Of a stretch of 45,563 bases of DNA, positions 11,361 to 43,839 are shown in pieces (position 1 is the first letter of the stretch; every line of letters starts with the position of its first letter). This DNA is from Myxococcota bacterium (lineage in GTDB: Bacteria; Myxococcota_A; UBA9160; PR03): assembly GCA_030066475.1 (NCBI GenBank), contig JASJBO010000003.1, positions 1-45,563 on the forward strand, read 5' to 3'. Both the position numbers and the translations under genes were made by a program. The notes under the pieces are model-generated. The model saw nothing but the letters and a program-made list of their open reading frames with translations, had not been told where the DNA came from and did no database searches.

Positions 11361-11384
11361 GGGTGCGAGCACGGGAGGAACTCC

Positions 11385-11873
11385 ATGTCCGGCTTCCACG
11401 ACCTCGAGATGACCTCGATCACCGGCGAGACGGTGGCCTTCTCCGGCTACCGCGGGCAGCTCTGCCTGGTGGTGAACCTGGCCAGCCGCTGAGGCCTCAC
11501 GCCCCAGTACGCAGGTCTGCGTACCCTTCACGAGAGCCACCGCAGCCGGGGCTTCCAGGTCCTCGGCTTCCCCTGCAACCAGTTCGGCGCCCAGGAGCCC
11601 GGCAGCGACGCCGAGATCCTCGAGTTCGCCCGCTCCAAGTACGGCGTGGACTTCCCGATGTTCTCCAAGATCGAGGTCAACGGCGACGGCGCCTGCGAGC
11701 TCTACCGGCTGCTCAAGGCCGGCCATCCGGACGAGGACGGCAACGAGGACATCTCCTGGAACTTCACCAAGTTCCTGGTCGACGGCTCCGGGGCGGTGGT
11801 CGCCCGCTTCGGCCCGGCCACGACGCCCGAGGAGATCGAGCCGCACCTGGCCGAGCACCTGGGAGGGGGATGA
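11385..11873 (+). CDS. Selenocysteine-containing glutathione peroxidase (UGA recoded)
   Basis: Read through one in-frame TGA (11490-11492), this is a complete 162-residue glutathione peroxidase. The catalytic strand reads VVNLASRUGLTPQY, so the UGA falls exactly at the Sec/Cys site (residue 36). The rest of the tetrad is present: Gln70 in GAQEPG, Trp125 and Asn126 in SWNFTKFLVD. FPCNQF and FPMFSKIEVNG are also conserved. It reduces peroxides with thiols; length fits BtuE-like bacterial enzymes. Start ATG 11385 has GGGAGG six nt upstream. A SECIS-like hairpin follows the UGA. No other in-frame stop occurs. Without recoding, only a short N-terminal peptide and a 75-residue C-terminal ORF appear. 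The next gene overlaps by ATGA. A TGC-to-TGA sequencing error is the alternative. Confidence 0.88.
11490..11492 (+). other. Selenocysteine UGA codon
   Basis: An in-frame TGA at codon 36 of the glutathione peroxidase, flanked by NLASR and GLTPQY. This is the position of catalytic Sec or Cys throughout the family. Reading frame and homology continue unbroken on both sides. Confidence 0.87.
11507..11524 (+). promoter_or_regulatory. Bacterial SECIS-like hairpin
   Basis: Arms GTACGCAG (11507-11514) and CTGCGTAC (11517-11524) pair perfectly; a realistic fold has a 7-bp stem with the tetraloop GGTC. The apex GCAGGTCTGC is the same as the apex of the E. coli fdhF SECIS as I remember it. The loop lies about 22 nt after the UGA, inside the range for bacterial SelB-dependent recoding. 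The bulged U of the fdhF element is not evident here. Confidence 0.8.
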
Positions 11874-12700
11874 GGGTCCGCGGCGTCGATCTCGCCCTGC
11901 GCGACACCGGCTCGGGCACGCCGTTCCTCTGGGGCCACGGGCTGCTCGGAAGCATGGAGCAGGAGGACGACGCGGCGCTGTTCGACTTCGGCGAGATGGC
12001 GGCTGGACGGCGCCTGCTCCGCTTCGACGCGCGCGGGCACGGCCGCTCGGAGGCGACCCTCGCCCCCGACGACTATCGCTGGCCGAGCCTCGCCCGCGAC
12101 CTGCTGGGCCTCGCCGACGCCCTCGGGCTCGACCGCGCCGTGCTCGGAGGGGTCTCGATGGGCGCTGCGACCGCGCTCCACGCCGCGCTCGCGGCCTCCG
12201 GGCGGGCCGCGGCGCTCGTGCTGGCCGGACCGCCCACCGCGTGGAGCACCCGCCCGCGCCAGGCGCGTCTCTACCGCGTCTCGGCGGGGATGGTGGGGGC
12301 GCTCGGTCTCGCGCCCTTTCGCGGCCTGGCCGGCCTGGCCGGCCTGGGCGCCTCGAACCCGACGCTCGCCGCGATGCAGCGCTCGGTGATGCGGTCCCTG
12401 CGTCGCGCCGATGCGCGCGCCGTCGAGGCCGCCCTGCGCGGCGCCGCCCGGTCCGATCTGCCGGACCCGGAGCGGCTGCGCCGACTCGAGGTGCCCGCGC
12501 TGATCCTGGCCTGGAGCGGCGACCGCACCCATCCCGTCTCGACGGCGGAGCGCCTGGCGGAGCTGTTGCCCGACGCCGCGCTCCACGTGGCTCGCGATGC
12601 CGCCGAGCTGGGACGCTGGGCGACGCTCGTGCAGCGCTTCCTGGCAGAGCGCGCTCCGGCCGACCCGGACGATCTGGCATGCGGGGCCCGCGGGGGCTGA
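11870..12700 (+). CDS. Alpha/beta hydrolase
   Basis: A 276-residue alpha/beta hydrolase. Landmarks are WGHGLLGS (oxyanion region), FDARGHGRSE, the nucleophile elbow GGVSMGAATALHAAL, and the acid region LILAWSGDRTHPVS. The usual catalytic His near the C-terminus is not obvious; HVARDAAELGRW is the nearest candidate. Esterases, thioesterases and haloperoxidase-like enzymes share this fold, so the substrate cannot be named. Its ATG overlaps the glutathione peroxidase stop (ATGA), which implies translational coupling. Expression would then depend on ribosomes passing the UGA upstream, so it may respond to selenium supply. Confidence 0.85.
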   Translation: MRVRGVDLALRDTGSGTPFLWGHGLLGSMEQEDDAALFDFGEMAAGRRLLRFDARGHGRSEATLAPDDYRWPSLARDLLGLADALGLDRAVLGGVSMGAATALHAALAASGRAAALVLAGPPTAWSTRPRQARLYRVSAGMVGALGLAPFRGLAGLAGLGASNPTLAAMQRSVMRSLRRADARAVEAALRGAARSDLPDPERLRRLEVPALILAWSGDRTHPVSTAERLAELLPDAALHVARDAAELGRWATLVQRFLAERAPADPDDLACGARGG

Positions 12701-19421: not shown

Positions 19422-20495
19422 TCAGCCCGCCGGGTTCGCCGCCAGGTGGTCGAAGCGTCCGGCGGGGCGGCGCTTGCGGTAGGCCGACACGATCGGCTCG
19501 AGCTCGGCGGGGCTGGCGCCGTGCAGGATCACGCCGTCGGCGCCGAGCGCGAACTGGCCCTCGATCTTCTCGACGCAGCGTTCGGGGCTGCCGGTGGCGG
19601 CAGAGGCCAGCCATCCCTCGGGGATCAGCCCGGCGAGGTGCTCGAGCTGCTCGGTCGTGGCCGTGTCGTCGAAGGCGCCGCGGAAGCCCGCCACGAGCGG
19701 GTCCGTGCGGAAGCGCTCCAGCGCGGCGGGGTCCCAGCGGTTGGTCTCCACCATCAGGTCGCCGTAGGCCTGCAGGTAGGTCGCCATGCGGCCGACGGTC
19801 TTCTTGAGCCGCACGGGCTCGGGCAGGTGGTCGCCGATCGTGGCGAAGCACGACCAGACGCGGACCCGGGCCGGGTCGCGCCCCGCCTGCTCGGCGGCGC
19901 GCTTCACGTCGCCCACGCAGCGCTCGAGCGTCTCGTCGGTGAAGAAGGTGTGGAGCACCACGGCGTCGAAGACGCGGCCGCCGAGCGCGAGCGAGTTCGG
20001 CCCGAAGGCGGTGAAGGTCATCGGGATGTGCTCGTCCACGCCGCTCATGGCGAGCAGCGGGTAGCGCCCGGCCGGACCGTCGTGCCCCACCACGGGCTTG
20101 CCGCGCCAGATGCGCCGCATCATCCCCACGAAGTCCTCGATCTGGGCGGTCTTGATGCGCGGGATGCCGAAGGCGTCGAACATCACCGGGATGCCGCGGC
20201 CCAGGCCGAGCGAGAAGCGGCCGCCCGTCAGGCGGTGCATGGTCATGGCGTAGGCCGCCGTGACCATCGGATGGCGGGTGTTGTGGTTGGTGGCGGCGGT
20301 CGCGATCCCGATCTCGCTCGAGACGGCCCCGGCCGCGCCCGAGAGGGTCGCTGCCTCCTTCACGTTGAAGCGCTCGGAGATGAAGGCGGCGCCGAGGCCC
20401 AGCGCCTCGCCCTGGCGCACCTCCTCGATCAGGTCGCGCGGGGAGCGGGCGGCGCCCGCCAGCGTGTAGAAGGCCAGCTCGTTCATGCGGGTCAT
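19422..20495 (-). CDS. TIGR03857-type LLM class F420-dependent oxidoreductase
   Basis: A 357-residue luciferase-like TIM-barrel protein. The blocks GLGAAFISERFNVKEAATL, ATAATNHNTRHPMVTA, TMHRLTGGRFSLGLGRG and VVLHTFFTDETLERCV match the TIGR03857 group, which is predicted to use cofactor F420. The reaction is not established for the group. ATG 20495 overlaps the stop codon of the kinase-like gene upstream (ATGA), so it is the third gene of the acyl-CoA dehydrogenase operon. This makes a role in processing the same acyl substrate likely. F420 use implies that F420 biosynthesis genes exist elsewhere in the genome. Confidence 0.87.
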   Translation of the reverse strand: MTRMNELAFYTLAGAARSPRDLIEEVRQGEALGLGAAFISERFNVKEAATLSGAAGAVSSEIGIATAATNHNTRHPMVTAAYAMTMHRLTGGRFSLGLGRGIPVMFDAFGIPRIKTAQIEDFVGMMRRIWRGKPVVGHDGPAGRYPLLAMSGVDEHIPMTFTAFGPNSLALGGRVFDAVVLHTFFTDETLERCVGDVKRAAEQAGRDPARVRVWSCFATIGDHLPEPVRLKKTVGRMATYLQAYGDLMVETNRWDPAALERFRTDPLVAGFRGAFDDTATTEQLEHLAGLIPEGWLASAATGSPERCVEKIEGQFALGADGVILHGASPAELEPIVSAYRKRRPAGRFDHLAANPAG

Positions 20496-21916
20496 CGCGT
20501 CGTCCCCGTCTCCACCGCGTGCCGGAAGCCCGAGTAGCGCGGCTGGTCGATCGCCACCTGGTTCACCACGGCCTCGCGCAGGGTCTCGGCCAGGCCCGGC
20601 CGGTCGAGCGGCATCGAGCCGTCGCGCAGCTCGTGCACCAGGCGCCAGCGCAGCGTCTCGAGCTCGTCCTGCGCTCCGTAGAGCGCGCGCAGGCGCTCGC
20701 GCTCCCGCGCGCGCAGCGGCGGGCCCAGCTCGAGCTCGCGCGCGACCACGTCGAGCGCGTTGGCCGCGACGCGCGCCATGAAGTGGGTGCGGCCGCGCGT
20801 CGCCTGCATCACGTCGCCGCGCAGGAAGTCGCGCACGGCGCCCAGCAGCTCGTCGGCGCGCGGCATGTCGATGCCGCGGTCGCCGGGGTCGGCCGCCAGC
20901 AGCTCGACCGGCCCCGGGATCAGCAGGTTCACGCAGTCGACCTGGCACTCGGACGAGCGCCGGCCGATGGCGGGCCGCTCGACGGTCTGGTCGGGGCCGT
21001 GACGGTAGTGCTCGGCCATCGAGAGGCAGCCGATCGCCCACCAGAACGAGCCGAACACCTCCCAGAAGCGCACGTGCTCGGGATCGACCCGCACGCCCGA
21101 CACCGCCTCGTAGCCGCGGAACAGGTCCTCGCGCTCGCCGAAGCCGCCCACCGGGAGGTCGCGGTGGCCGAAGCGCCACGAGTTGGTGCACAGCCAGCCG
21201 AGGTCGCGCATCGGGTCGCCCCGATGCGCGAGCTCCCAGTCGAGCACGGCGTTGATGCCGTCAGCCGTGAGCATGAAGTTGCCGGTGCGGAAGTCGTTGT
21301 GCACGAGCGTGGTGCGGGGCGCCTGCGGCAGGTGGTCGAGCAGCCAGCGCGCGGTGTAGTCGATCATGGGCTGCGGCGTCGGGTAGGCGCGGTAGCGCTC
21401 CCAGGTCTGGCGCACGAAGGTCTCGGGCGTGACGGTCGCCAGCCGATCGGCGAGCCCGCTCGCGTCGAGGTCGATCGCGTGGATGCGCGCCAGGATCTCG
21501 CCGCACTGGCGCGCCAGCCCGGGCCGCACCGCCTCGAACTCGGGGGCGCGCACCACGCGCGCGCCGAGCGCCTCGCCCTCGAGCCACTCCATCACGAAGC
21601 CCTCGCCCAGCCCGTCGCCGGGCTCGAGCACGGCCACCACCTCCGGCTCCGGCACGCCCGCGTCGCGGGCGGCGCGCATCAGCAGGGCCTCGGTGGCGAG
21701 CCCGGGGCCGCCGTGCTCCTGCGTGCCCACGCCGCCCGGCGCGCGCCGCAGGGCGAACTGCCGCTCGCCGTCGCGCGTCGCGGCGACGATCCGGTAGGTC
21801 TCCTGGCTCGCGCCGCCCGAGAGCCGCTCGGCCGCGCGCAGCGCCTCGAAGCCCGCGACGTGCTTCGCGAGCACCGCCGCGAGCGCCGCCTCGAAGGCGT
21901 CGCGCGCCTCGCCCAC
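20492..21916 (-). CDS. Aminoglycoside-phosphotransferase-like kinase (ACAD10/11- or LvaA-type)
   Basis: A 474-residue kinase-fold protein. Landmarks are RLSGGASQETYRI, the catalytic loop LVHNDFRTGN (near residue 206) and the metal site VLDWELAHRGDP. It belongs to the phosphotransferase group that accompanies acyl-CoA dehydrogenases, as in the human ACAD10/11 fusions and Pseudomonas LvaA, which phosphorylate 4-hydroxyacyl-CoA. A C-terminal extension of about 130 residues follows the kinase domain. Start GTG 21916 lies 2 nt after the dehydrogenase stop, with GGAG about 10 nt upstream. The tight coupling to an acyl-CoA dehydrogenase supports an acyl-CoA or hydroxy-acid substrate, not antibiotic resistance. 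Confidence 0.85.
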   Translation of the reverse strand: MGEARDAFEAALAAVLAKHVAGFEALRAAERLSGGASQETYRIVAATRDGERQFALRRAPGGVGTQEHGGPGLATEALLMRAARDAGVPEPEVVAVLEPGDGLGEGFVMEWLEGEALGARVVRAPEFEAVRPGLARQCGEILARIHAIDLDASGLADRLATVTPETFVRQTWERYRAYPTPQPMIDYTARWLLDHLPQAPRTTLVHNDFRTGNFMLTADGINAVLDWELAHRGDPMRDLGWLCTNSWRFGHRDLPVGGFGEREDLFRGYEAVSGVRVDPEHVRFWEVFGSFWWAIGCLSMAEHYRHGPDQTVERPAIGRRSSECQVDCVNLLIPGPVELLAADPGDRGIDMPRADELLGAVRDFLRGDVMQATRGRTHFMARVAANALDVVARELELGPPLRARERERLRALYGAQDELETLRWRLVHELRDGSMPLDRPGLAETLREAVVNQVAIDQPRYSGFRHAVETGTTR

Positions 21917-26410: not shown

Positions 26411-27666
26411 GAGGCGGTGTCGCCGGAGGCGTCGGCGACCGTCTCGCGGTCGGCGGCCGTGGGCGCCGCCTCGATGCTGCGCACCCGCATGCCGTCGGTC
26501 GCGATCTCGAGCGGCGAGACCACCACGCGCTCGTCGGCGTCGAGGCCCGCCCGCACCCAGGCGCGCTCGCGGTCGGTGCGCACGACCTCGACGCGCCGCA
26601 CGCGGAGGCGCTCCTCGGCGTCCACCACCAGCACCTCGTCGCGGCGGCGCAGCGCCGTGCGCGGCAGCTCGAACACGTCGTCGACGCGCCGACCGCGGAT
26701 CGAGGCCTCGACGAACAGGCCGATCTCGAGCGGCGGCTGCTCGGGATCCTCGCTGCGCCCGTACGGGTCGTCGACGCGCGCGACCACGTGCAGCATGCGG
26801 CTCTGTGGATCGAGCGCGCCCTCGACCCGCACCAGCCGCCCGCGCCAGGTGCGCTCGGCGCCGGCGAAGCGGGCGGACAGCAGCACCTCGGGGCCCTCGA
26901 ACATCGGCGCGTCGGGCGCCACCTCGGCGTCTTCGGCCGGGGGCCCCGGACGTGTCTCGCGAAAGCCGAGCGGCAGCTCGAGATGCGCGAGGTCCGCGTC
27001 GGTGATCGGGAGACGCACCTCGGCGTAGTCCACCGAGAACACGCGCGCGACGGGCTGGCCGCGGGTCACGAACTGGCCGACCCCGATGTGGCGCTCGCGC
27101 ACGCGGCCCACGAACGGCGCCACGATCCGGGTGCGCTCCAGGTCGAGCTCGGCGCGCGCCAGGGCCGAGCGGGCCTCGCGCACGTTCGCCTCGGCCGTGG
27201 CCTGCGCGTGCTCGGCCTCGTCGAGCCGGGCCTCGCTGGCTGCGCCCGAGCGGCGCATCGACCGCTGCCGCGCGAGGGTGGCCGCGGCCAGCTTCTCGTC
27301 GGCGAGCGCCCGCGCCAGCGCGGCACCGGCCCGTTCGAGCGCCACCTCGTAGTCGCGCGCCTCGATGCGCGCCAGCACGTCGCCCGCCTCGAAGAACCCG
27401 CCGGCGGCGGAGCGGGGCGAGACCCAGACGATGCGCCCGGCGACCTCCGTGACCAGATCGCTCTCCGTGCGCGGGGCGACCTCGCCCTGCGCCGATACCC
27501 ACAGCTGCACCGGGCCGCGCGCGGTGCGCACCACCTCGACGGGCGGGACGGGGAGCTGAGGCCGGTTCGACTCCGGCGACGGGCGCACCGCGACGAGCGC
27601 GACCATCACGGCGCTGGCCGCGGTCACGACCACGAGAGGCAGCACGACCTTCGGGCTGGTCTTCAA
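26407..27666 (-). CDS. RND efflux periplasmic adaptor (membrane fusion protein)
   Basis: A periplasmic adaptor of 419 residues from TTG 27666, or 436 from ATG 27717. It has an N-terminal membrane anchor (VVLPLVVVTAASAVMVALVAV), a barrel-sandwich half-motif (GRIVWVSPRSAAGGFFEAGDVLARIEARDYEV), a coiled-coil hairpin rich in Ala/Arg/Glu (residues about 100-170) and the second half-motif IVAPFVGRVRERHIGVGQFVTRGQP. A C-terminal domain follows. I prefer TTG 27666 because a TTGACT-N17-GATACT promoter lies between the two candidate starts: a transcript from it cannot include ATG 27717. The upstream ATG also lies inside the TetR operator. Coupled to the permease by GTGA overlap. Confidence 0.88.
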   Translation of the reverse strand: MKTSPKVVLPLVVVTAASAVMVALVAVRPSPESNRPQLPVPPVEVVRTARGPVQLWVSAQGEVAPRTESDLVTEVAGRIVWVSPRSAAGGFFEAGDVLARIEARDYEVALERAGAALARALADEKLAAATLARQRSMRRSGAASEARLDEAEHAQATAEANVREARSALARAELDLERTRIVAPFVGRVRERHIGVGQFVTRGQPVARVFSVDYAEVRLPITDADLAHLELPLGFRETRPGPPAEDAEVAPDAPMFEGPEVLLSARFAGAERTWRGRLVRVEGALDPQSRMLHVVARVDDPYGRSEDPEQPPLEIGLFVEASIRGRRVDDVFELPRTALRRRDEVLVVDAEERLRVRRVEVVRTDRERAWVRAGLDADERVVVSPLEIATDGMRVRSIEAAPTAADRETVADASGDTAS

Positions 27667-35749: not shown

Positions 35750-37000
35750 ATGCCGATGAACGTCCAGCCGATTCCGGGCGTCTCCGACCGCATCAACCAG
35801 ATCCGCATGCTCACGGCCGAGATCGTGAACCGCGAGATCCTGCCCAACGAGAACACGCTCTGGAACTGGCGCCACGGCAGCAAGGTGGCGGAGAGCGATC
35901 GCGAGCGGGCCCGCGAGCTGCGCCACGACATCCAGAACAAGGTGAAGCAGGCGGGGCTGTGGGCGCCGCACCTGCCCGAGGAGTACGGCGGCTGCGGGCT
36001 CGGCTTCCTCGAGCACGCCTACATGAACGAGGTGCTCGCCTACGCGGTCGGCGCCGCCTCGCTGTTCGGCGTGGTCGCGCCCAACTCGGGCAACCAGAAG
36101 ATCCTGGTCAAGTACGGCACCGAGGAGCAGAAGCAGAAGTGGCTGGTCCCGCTCACCGAGGGGAAGATGGAGTCGGGCTTCTCGATGACCGAGCCCGACA
36201 ACGCCGGCTCCGACCCGCGCTCGATCAAGACCACTGCGCGCCGCGACGGCGACCACTGGGTCATCAACGGCCACAAGTGGTTCACCTCGAACGGCCTGCG
36301 CGCCGACTTCCTGATCGTCATGTGCCGCACCGACGACCCGGACGGGCCCGCCGAGGCCAACGGCAAGATGACGCAGATCATCGTGCCCACCGAGACGCCC
36401 GGCGTGAACATCGTGCGCGGCATCGAGGTGTGGGGCCGGCGCAGCGACCACGTCGAGGTGATCTACGAGGACGTGCGGGTGCCCGTCGAGAACCAGCTCG
36501 GCCGCACCGGTTCGGGCCACCAGGCCGCCCAGGACCGCCTCGGCGCCGGTCGCGTCTACCACTGCATGAACTCGGTCGGCCAGATGTGGCGCGCCTTCGA
36601 CCTGATGGTGGAGCGCGCCAACACCCGCGAGGTGCACGGCGGCCTGCTGCGCGACAAGCAGTTCGTGCAGGGCTTCATCGCGGACTCGTACATCGACATC
36701 CAGGCCGCGCGCCTCATGACCATCCACTGCGCCGAGCGCATGGATGCCGGCGGCGACGCCCGCACCGAGATCTCGGCCATCAAGATCTTCGTGCCCGAGG
36801 CCTACACCCGCGTCGTCGACCGCGCGATCCAGGTGTGGGGCGCCGCAGGCGTGTCGGGCGACCTGCCGCTGGCCGGCATGTACCAGGGGGCCCGCACCCT
36901 GCGCCTCGCCGACGGTCCCGACGAGGTCCACAAGATCCTGATCGCCAAGAACGTCCTCAAGCAGTACGGTGCCGGCGGCTCCTGGGACTTCGGCAACTGA
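35750..37000 (+). CDS. Acyl-CoA dehydrogenase (ACAD10/11-like)
   Basis: A 416-residue acyl-CoA dehydrogenase. Blocks visible: APHLPEEYGGCGLGF, SGFSMTEPDNAGSDPRSIKT, VINGHKWFTSNG, EVWGRRSDHVEVIYEDVRV and IQVWGAAGVSGDLPLA. Near the C-terminus RLADGPDEVHKI replaces the usual YEGTxxIQ block, so Asp stands where the catalytic Glu is normally found. This DGPDEVH signature is shared with ACAD10/11-type enzymes, which act on hydroxy- or phospho-acyl-CoA, as far as I know. GAGGAG lies 7 nt before ATG 35750. The SDR gene follows after 11 bp. Confidence 0.92.
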   Translation: MPMNVQPIPGVSDRINQIRMLTAEIVNREILPNENTLWNWRHGSKVAESDRERARELRHDIQNKVKQAGLWAPHLPEEYGGCGLGFLEHAYMNEVLAYAVGAASLFGVVAPNSGNQKILVKYGTEEQKQKWLVPLTEGKMESGFSMTEPDNAGSDPRSIKTTARRDGDHWVINGHKWFTSNGLRADFLIVMCRTDDPDGPAEANGKMTQIIVPTETPGVNIVRGIEVWGRRSDHVEVIYEDVRVPVENQLGRTGSGHQAAQDRLGAGRVYHCMNSVGQMWRAFDLMVERANTREVHGGLLRDKQFVQGFIADSYIDIQAARLMTIHCAERMDAGGDARTEISAIKIFVPEAYTRVVDRAIQVWGAAGVSGDLPLAGMYQGARTLRLADGPDEVHKILIAKNVLKQYGAGGSWDFGN

Positions 37001-43464: not shown

Positions 43465-43839
43465 TCAGATCTCCTCGGGGGCGTCGACCGTCCGCTCGTT
43501 CCGCACGTTGCCGGTGTTCCGCGTCGAGGCCGGCTCGAACAGCAGCACGTGCACCTCGCCGTGGGCGACCGGCCTGTGCTCGACGCCGCGGGGCACGATG
43601 AAGAGCTCTCCCGCCTCGAGCTCGACGATCCGATCGCGCAGGTGGATGGCGAGCGCTCCCCGAAGGACCAGGAACAGCTCGTCCTCGTCGCGGTGATGGT
43701 GCCAGACGAACTCGCCCTCGAGCTTGGCGAGCTTGACGTGCTGTCCGTTCAGCGCACCCACGATGCGCGGGCTCCAGCGCTCGTCGAACTGCGCGAGCTT
43801 CTCGGCGAGGTTCACCTTCCCGGTCACGACGCGACTCAC
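43465..43839 (-). CDS. Cupin domain protein
   Basis: A 124-residue single-domain cupin. WHHHRDEDELFLVLRGAL is the first cupin motif (three His and Glu metal ligands), and ELFIVPRGVEHRPVAHGE the second. It probably binds a divalent metal; sugar isomerases, dioxygenases and storage-like proteins share the fold. GTG 43839 is chosen because GGGAGG lies 5-6 nt upstream; GTG 43827 is a later alternative. The 220 bp upstream (43840-44060) hold no convincing gene, apart from a TACCGT box on this strand near 43970. Confidence 0.82.
   Translation of the reverse strand: MSRVVTGKVNLAEKLAQFDERWSPRIVGALNGQHVKLAKLEGEFVWHHHRDEDELFLVLRGALAIHLRDRIVELEAGELFIVPRGVEHRPVAHGEVHVLLFEPASTRNTGNVRNERTVDAPEEI

Follow-up and report, generated by a model that had tools for sequence, protein, structure and literature searches.

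Glutathione peroxidases that use selenocysteine (Sec-GPx) are a known kind of bacterial protein, in print since 2005, and the gene described here adds one to them. Five bacterial Sec-GPx sequences, with a UxxT motif, were reported in the Sargasso Sea selenoproteome (PMC1088965), the GOS selenoproteome held 40 Sec-GPx and 3,287 Cys homologues (PMC2398784), and bacterial Sec-GPx are listed in reviews (PMC13188914, PMC9312934). By their published descriptions, the Sargasso Sea and GOS proteins (PMC1088965, PMC2398784) are like ours in having Sec, an in-frame SECIS downstream of the UGA, and Cys homologues. In eukaryotes the SECIS is described as lying in the 3' UTR (PMC13188914), whereas the element reported here is inside the coding region. 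The gene lies in what we call the window, that is, the whole stretch of DNA analyzed, a complete contig of 45,563 nucleotides.

The catalytic tetrad of glutathione peroxidases is Sec/Cys-Gln-Trp-Asn. GPX4 carries it as a Sec-Gln-Trp-Asn site and works without a resolving Cys, and 2-Cys GPx such as yeast HYR1 use thioredoxin as reductant. On the + strand of the window, a frame at 11385..11873 belongs to this family. It starts with the ATG at 11385, just downstream of a likely ribosome-binding site read from the sequence (GGGAGGA, 11373..11379, +), and is interrupted by a single in-frame TGA at 11490..11492 (+), codon 36, after which 126 codons stay open up to the terminal TGA at 11871-11873. 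Read through, the frame yields 162 residues including Sec36 (MSGFHDLEMTS...LASR-U-GLTPQYAGLRTLHES...WNFTKFLVDG...), with the catalytic context LASR-U-GLTPQY around codon 36. Residues 4-111 match Pfam GSHPx (PF00255; E = 4.2e-39, 132.9 bits against a cut-off of 27), the TGA falling within the match. Relatives with solved structures are GPx and GPX4 proteins, including vertebrate GPX4 (PDB 2obi and others), of the same family by sequence, and HYR1 (PDB 3cmi; E = 1.4e-40). The catalytic residues of the window protein are U36, Q70, W125 and N126, and the last three are kept in all 45 TGA rows of the alignment described below.

Gene calling under table 11 returns only two open reading frames here, of 35 amino acids (11385-11492) and 75 amino acids (11646-11873), so that a common antioxidant enzyme is missed because the UGA is taken as a stop. 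The initial annotation had pointed to this 75-residue fragment, to the 126 residues of frame and homology beyond the TGA, and to the placement of that TGA exactly at the Sec/Cys position of an otherwise intact GPx; the calls, the open codons, the Pfam match and the codon alignment, in which the TGA falls on the catalytic Cys codon of Cys homologues, agree with it on each point. Its central proposal, a hidden Sec-GPx, is supported by the TGA that homologues have at this codon, by a conserved and covarying hairpin, by Sec machinery in most of the genomes of those homologues, and by the loss of Cys82. We are highly confident that the gene is a selenoprotein glutathione peroxidase (GPX4-like) in which UGA36 is decoded as selenocysteine. 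From sequence comparison we infer that Sec is inserted, that the enzyme is active, what its reductant is, and that the host genome carries the machinery.

A scan of genome contigs found at least 590 GPx stretches, of which the best 80 were kept for codon comparison. Among these 80, the codon aligned to the window TGA was TGA in 25, TGC in 42, TGT in 13 and TGG in none. The TGA loci crowd the top of the best 80, occupying 25 of the first 26 places in tblastn order; the exception, L014, has TGT. Adding 19 further TGA loci and the window gave 45 TGA genes, spread over three phyla as judged by title or group, to set against 58 Cys genes, of which three are viral. L134, a 46th TGA gene that stands outside the 45 counted, agrees with them, with seven hairpin pairs.

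These counts bear on the proposal that the gene is a Cys GPx turned pseudogene, or misread, by a nonsense change from TGC or TGT to TGA. The change would take a single base, and close Cys homologues do exist (P0002-P0012, 67-73% identity), so an enzyme with Cys is workable in the same clade. However, 45 other genes share both the TGA at this codon and the hairpin after it, which makes a sequencing error very unlikely, and the codons after the TGA retain a coding-type GC3 of 0.95 along with the Gln, Trp and Asn that all 45 TGA rows share. We rate this explanation as highly improbable.

A second rival is that UGA is read as tryptophan, through a code change (table 4) or a suppressor tRNA. In its favour, 24 of the 120 protein matches listed have W at the Sec position (P0013, P0016, P0027 and others), while four start just after it. 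These W residues are probably products of table-4 gene calls. Against a tryptophan reading, TGA is the terminal stop of the GPx gene itself and of 11 of the 18 window genes checked, so there is no general code change; TGG was absent from the aligned codon in the best 80 of at least 590 loci; in the class linked to the window below, Sec machinery is widespread; and, as is well established, Trp cannot perform peroxidase chemistry. We give this reading next to no credence.

With the codon read as Sec, the W calls and the truncated matches suggest that Sec genes are being obscured in protein databases by table-4 calls and by truncation. A literature search on selenoproteins in Acidimicrob-, or on selenocysteine or glutathione peroxidase in Myxococc-, judged by titles and the beginnings of abstracts and with most subscription papers outside its reach, returned nothing on the subject. 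Within that scope, the gene shows a missed antioxidant enzyme in environmental lineages on whose selenium use little turned up in the literature.

Downstream of the internal TGA stands the perfect 7-bp stem GTACGCA-GGTC-TGCGTAC (11507..11524, +), a SECIS-like hairpin. The initial annotation was right about the stem and its GGTC apex; the distance it gave, about 22 nt after the UGA, is corrected to 14 nt for the start of the stem and 21 nt for the apical loop. Its statement that the apex equals that of the E. coli fdhF SECIS also holds, as fdhF does contain GCAGGTCTGC. The two elements serve different proteins and differ in spacing, the GGTC loop lying 18 nt from the UGA in fdhF and 21 nt in the window, and the fdhF SECIS has a bulged U that the window hairpin lacks. 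Folded alone, GUACGCA-GGUC-UGCGUAC has an energy of -8.5 kcal/mol. A published bSECIS model asks for a loop of 3-9 nt, a stem of 4-16 bp, a G in the first two loop positions, a minimum free energy of at most -7.5, and a distance of 16-37 nt from the UGA (PMC13188914). The window hairpin fits this model with a 4-nt loop opening on GG, a 7-bp stem, a distance of 21 nt and the energy of the isolated stem-loop.

By itself, the hairpin is weak evidence for recoding. The DNA of the window is 73% G+C, and 67 of its 628 TGAs are followed by a model stem of 7 bp or longer; in a context of 48-57 nt the folding energy is unexceptional (z of -0.92 and -0.90, against -3.55 for the stem alone). On these two grounds, hairpin energy was dropped as proof of a SECIS. 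An Rfam scan of the window gave nothing at the gathering threshold. When the segment was shuffled synonymously, 256 of 20,000 shuffles reached 7 bp and 14 of 20,000 reproduced the exact same stem. The hairpin segment holds four codons that are rare among their synonyms in 18 window genes (GCA, GGT and CGT at 4% each, CTT at 1%).

Comparison across homologues is more telling. A hairpin stands at the same place in every TGA gene, with 7 bp in 40 of the 45 and 6 bp in the other 5, whereas the 58 Cys homologues form 1 to 6 pairs there and none reaches 7 bp. Across the 44 distinct segments, 98.4% of stem cells are paired, and none of 500 shuffles came as high on cells paired or on the covariation score. 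Two stem pairs show compensatory changes (C-G to U-A and G-C to A-U); three others never vary and are uninformative on covariation. Sliding the structure by -2 gave a covariation score of 0.115 against 0.109 for the structure itself, but the slid version pairs only 72.4% of cells. Codon 46 lies in the 3' arm; all 45 TGA genes have CGT, TGT or CAT there, and 57 of the 58 Cys genes have GAG, GAA, CAG or CAA, L014 with TGT being the exception, so the amino acid at this position is apparently imposed by the hairpin. As judged from these alignments, hairpin conservation in TGA relative to Cys homologues exceeds chance.

Two variants of the element were observed. In L004, L008, L011, L013 and L015, titled Gammaproteobacteria or Pseudomonadales, the alternative apex GCC-GGGT-TGC replaces GCA-GGTC-TGC. 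In L014 (2262-2729), a gene with TGT that falls within the Sec clade, the GGTC letters are kept and the stem is broken, and codon 46 is TGT as in some SECIS elements. The L014 genome still carries tRNA-Sec and SelB, and the gene likely represents a Sec-to-Cys change with a decaying SECIS.

Position 82 separates the enzymes further. HYR1 has a Cys there (EIAQFCQ), which we take to be the resolving cysteine, and so do all 57 outgroup Cys rows. The window protein lacks it, as do all 45 TGA rows and all 24 W rows, where the residue is A or V, and it is absent from 70 of the 92 near Cys matches. In a quick tree of 173 rows and 146 columns, built with codons 36-48 removed and with W rows taken as TGA, one clade (SH-aLRT 97) holds all 69 Sec-labelled rows (45 TGA, 24 W) together with 47 Cys rows, and the 57 other Cys rows stand apart. 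The Sec/Cys label changes 18 times on this tree, with at least six changes forced by well-supported branches and 75 of 170 branches left open. The distribution suggests that Cys82 was likely lost with the arrival of Sec and that the later Cys enzymes descended from Sec ancestors, a proposed direction of change.

In the absence of Cys82, the TGA enzymes probably have a GPX4-like working mode, and the reductant with which the window enzyme acts on hydroperoxides is, as for GPX4, probably a small thiol such as glutathione. SelB and tRNA-Sec would decode the UGA at codon 36 as selenocysteine, directed by the in-frame hairpin with its GGUC loop 21 nt downstream, and the terminal UGA would end translation in the ordinary way. 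The mature active site would then join Sec36 to Gln70, Trp125 and Asn126. Since there is no resolving Cys, the expected catalytic cycle would run from Sec-OH through Se-S-thiol back to Sec with the small thiol.

On a broader scale, we lean modestly toward the view that these genes form a GPX4-like Sec-GPx subfamily of bacteria that lost Cys82 in moving to Sec, has undergone many Sec/Cys swaps since, keeps a single SECIS, nearly unchanged between phyla except for its two apex forms, and is widely absent from protein databases or present there in corrupted form. Its range would take in the Myxococcota-linked class discussed below, Acidimicrobiales and other Actinomycetota, and Pseudomonadales and other Pseudomonadota. 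If so, Cys enzymes that lack Cys82 would be what remains of ancestors that used Sec. With its many exchanges between Sec and Cys, and with the resolving cysteine as a clear marker, the clade could serve to test the advantage of Sec over Cys in natural sister enzymes.

The lineage of the window was approached through two of its other genes. With E ≤ 1e-100 as the threshold, 5 of the 377 genomes that share a phylum with G002 (a MAG with the title 'Myxococcales bacterium DT_71') matched the wax synthase, the best match having 62% identity in G399; in the phylum that includes the Pseudomonadales genome G001, the wax synthase matched 0 of 398, an empty answer that carries little weight. Because of the wax synthase matches, the class of G399 was chosen for further comparison. 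Its 90 genomes include G002, all five wax synthase genomes, and G065, the genome of L065, which is titled Proteobacteria. In an independent test, the acyl-CoA dehydrogenase at 35750-37000 matched 28 of 282 phylum genomes at E ≤ 1e-120, all 28 of them in the G399 class, at up to 89% identity (with the six best candidates per genome scored). This dehydrogenase is a good marker of the host lineage, in one Myxococcota-linked class.

Essentially full-length GPx with an internal TGA, at 63-75% identity, occur in 34 of the 90 class genomes, and in the 21 of these for which DNA was fetched the internal TGA was confirmed as the catalytic codon. The initial annotation considered bacterial Sec-GPx known but uncommon; known they are, and within this clade the Sec form is common. 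All 34 genomes have SelA, 31 have SelB, 29 tRNA-Sec and 27 SelD, and every one combines SelA with SelB and/or tRNA-Sec. SelA, SelB, SelC and SelD are all present in G355 and G332, two genomes with a TGA-GPx. tRNA-Sec is absent in five of the 34, SelB in three and SelD in seven, perhaps from incomplete assemblies.

Over the whole class (n = 90), SelA was found in 84 genomes, SelB in 69, SelD in 75, and tRNA-Sec over the cut-off in 76, although 6 of these 76 tRNA-Sec matches, with scores of just 48-52 bits, may belong to other tRNAs. The 56 genomes outside the TGA-GPx set have SelA in 50, SelB in 38 and tRNA-Sec over the cut-off in 47. The class thus uses Sec generally, and the machinery does not track TGA-GPx within it. 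SelD in the class (e.g., L137) mostly comes in two kinds: frames, mostly of about 360-460 residues, with an internal TGA, probably Sec-SelD, and frames, mostly of about 750-850 residues, that have no internal TGA and in which SelD is perhaps joined to a second domain. Among the 28 window genes scanned there were no sel genes.

Weak tRNA-Sec matches also turn up in controls, where 5 of 14 genomes pass the cut-off, so weight is given to strong scores alone. tRNA-Sec scored 60 bits or more in 23 of the 26 genomes that contain L001-L025 and L072; these are 22 of the 25 TGA genomes among them and the genome of L014, the TGA-locus genomes without it being G002, G019 and G025. Among Cys-GPx genomes (50 of 54, under stricter filters), 16 of 50 pass the cut-off and 13 reach 60 bits. 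SelB exceeded its cut-off in 25 of the same 26 genomes and 24 of the 25 TGA genomes, absent only from G025, the SelB search covering these 26 genomes and those of the G399 class.

A phage origin of the gene was considered and discarded. The scan of viral contigs gave four relatives, the three distinct ones all with TGT, and no exact match in viral contigs to the TGA-plus-hairpin pattern in its first apex form, the only form searched. A read-through screen of the window gave three candidates, at 11490, 27557 and 43694; the one at 27557 overlaps called genes and the one at 43694 lies over a minus-strand ORF, and both were rejected as further hidden Sec genes.

Immediately downstream of the GPx is an alpha/beta hydrolase (11870..12700, +; Abhydrolase_1, 1.2e-18), whose ATG at 11870 overlaps the GPx stop (ATGA). 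Since ribosomes terminating at UGA36 would not reach the hydrolase start, a Sec-GPx could be made while the recoding served mainly as a selenium-dependent switch for this gene. No hydrolase match was found in the GPx loci of relatives at the cut-offs used (E of 1e-20 and 1e-8), so such a switch would be local at best, and we consider it unlikely as the main role of the recoding. A translational coupling of the hydrolase to full-length GPx synthesis and Sec insertion is possibly at work in this locus, as a local speculation, beside the preferred reading of the gene as a Sec-GPx. Synteny with relatives' loci is in general slight and consists mostly of distant family matches. The exception is L134 (G386), where two genes about 5-8 kb from the TGA-GPx loosely recall the surroundings of the GPx in the window: one is luciferase-like, with 63% identity to window 19422-21191, and the other is an acyl-CoA dehydrogenase with 40% identity to that at 35750-37000.
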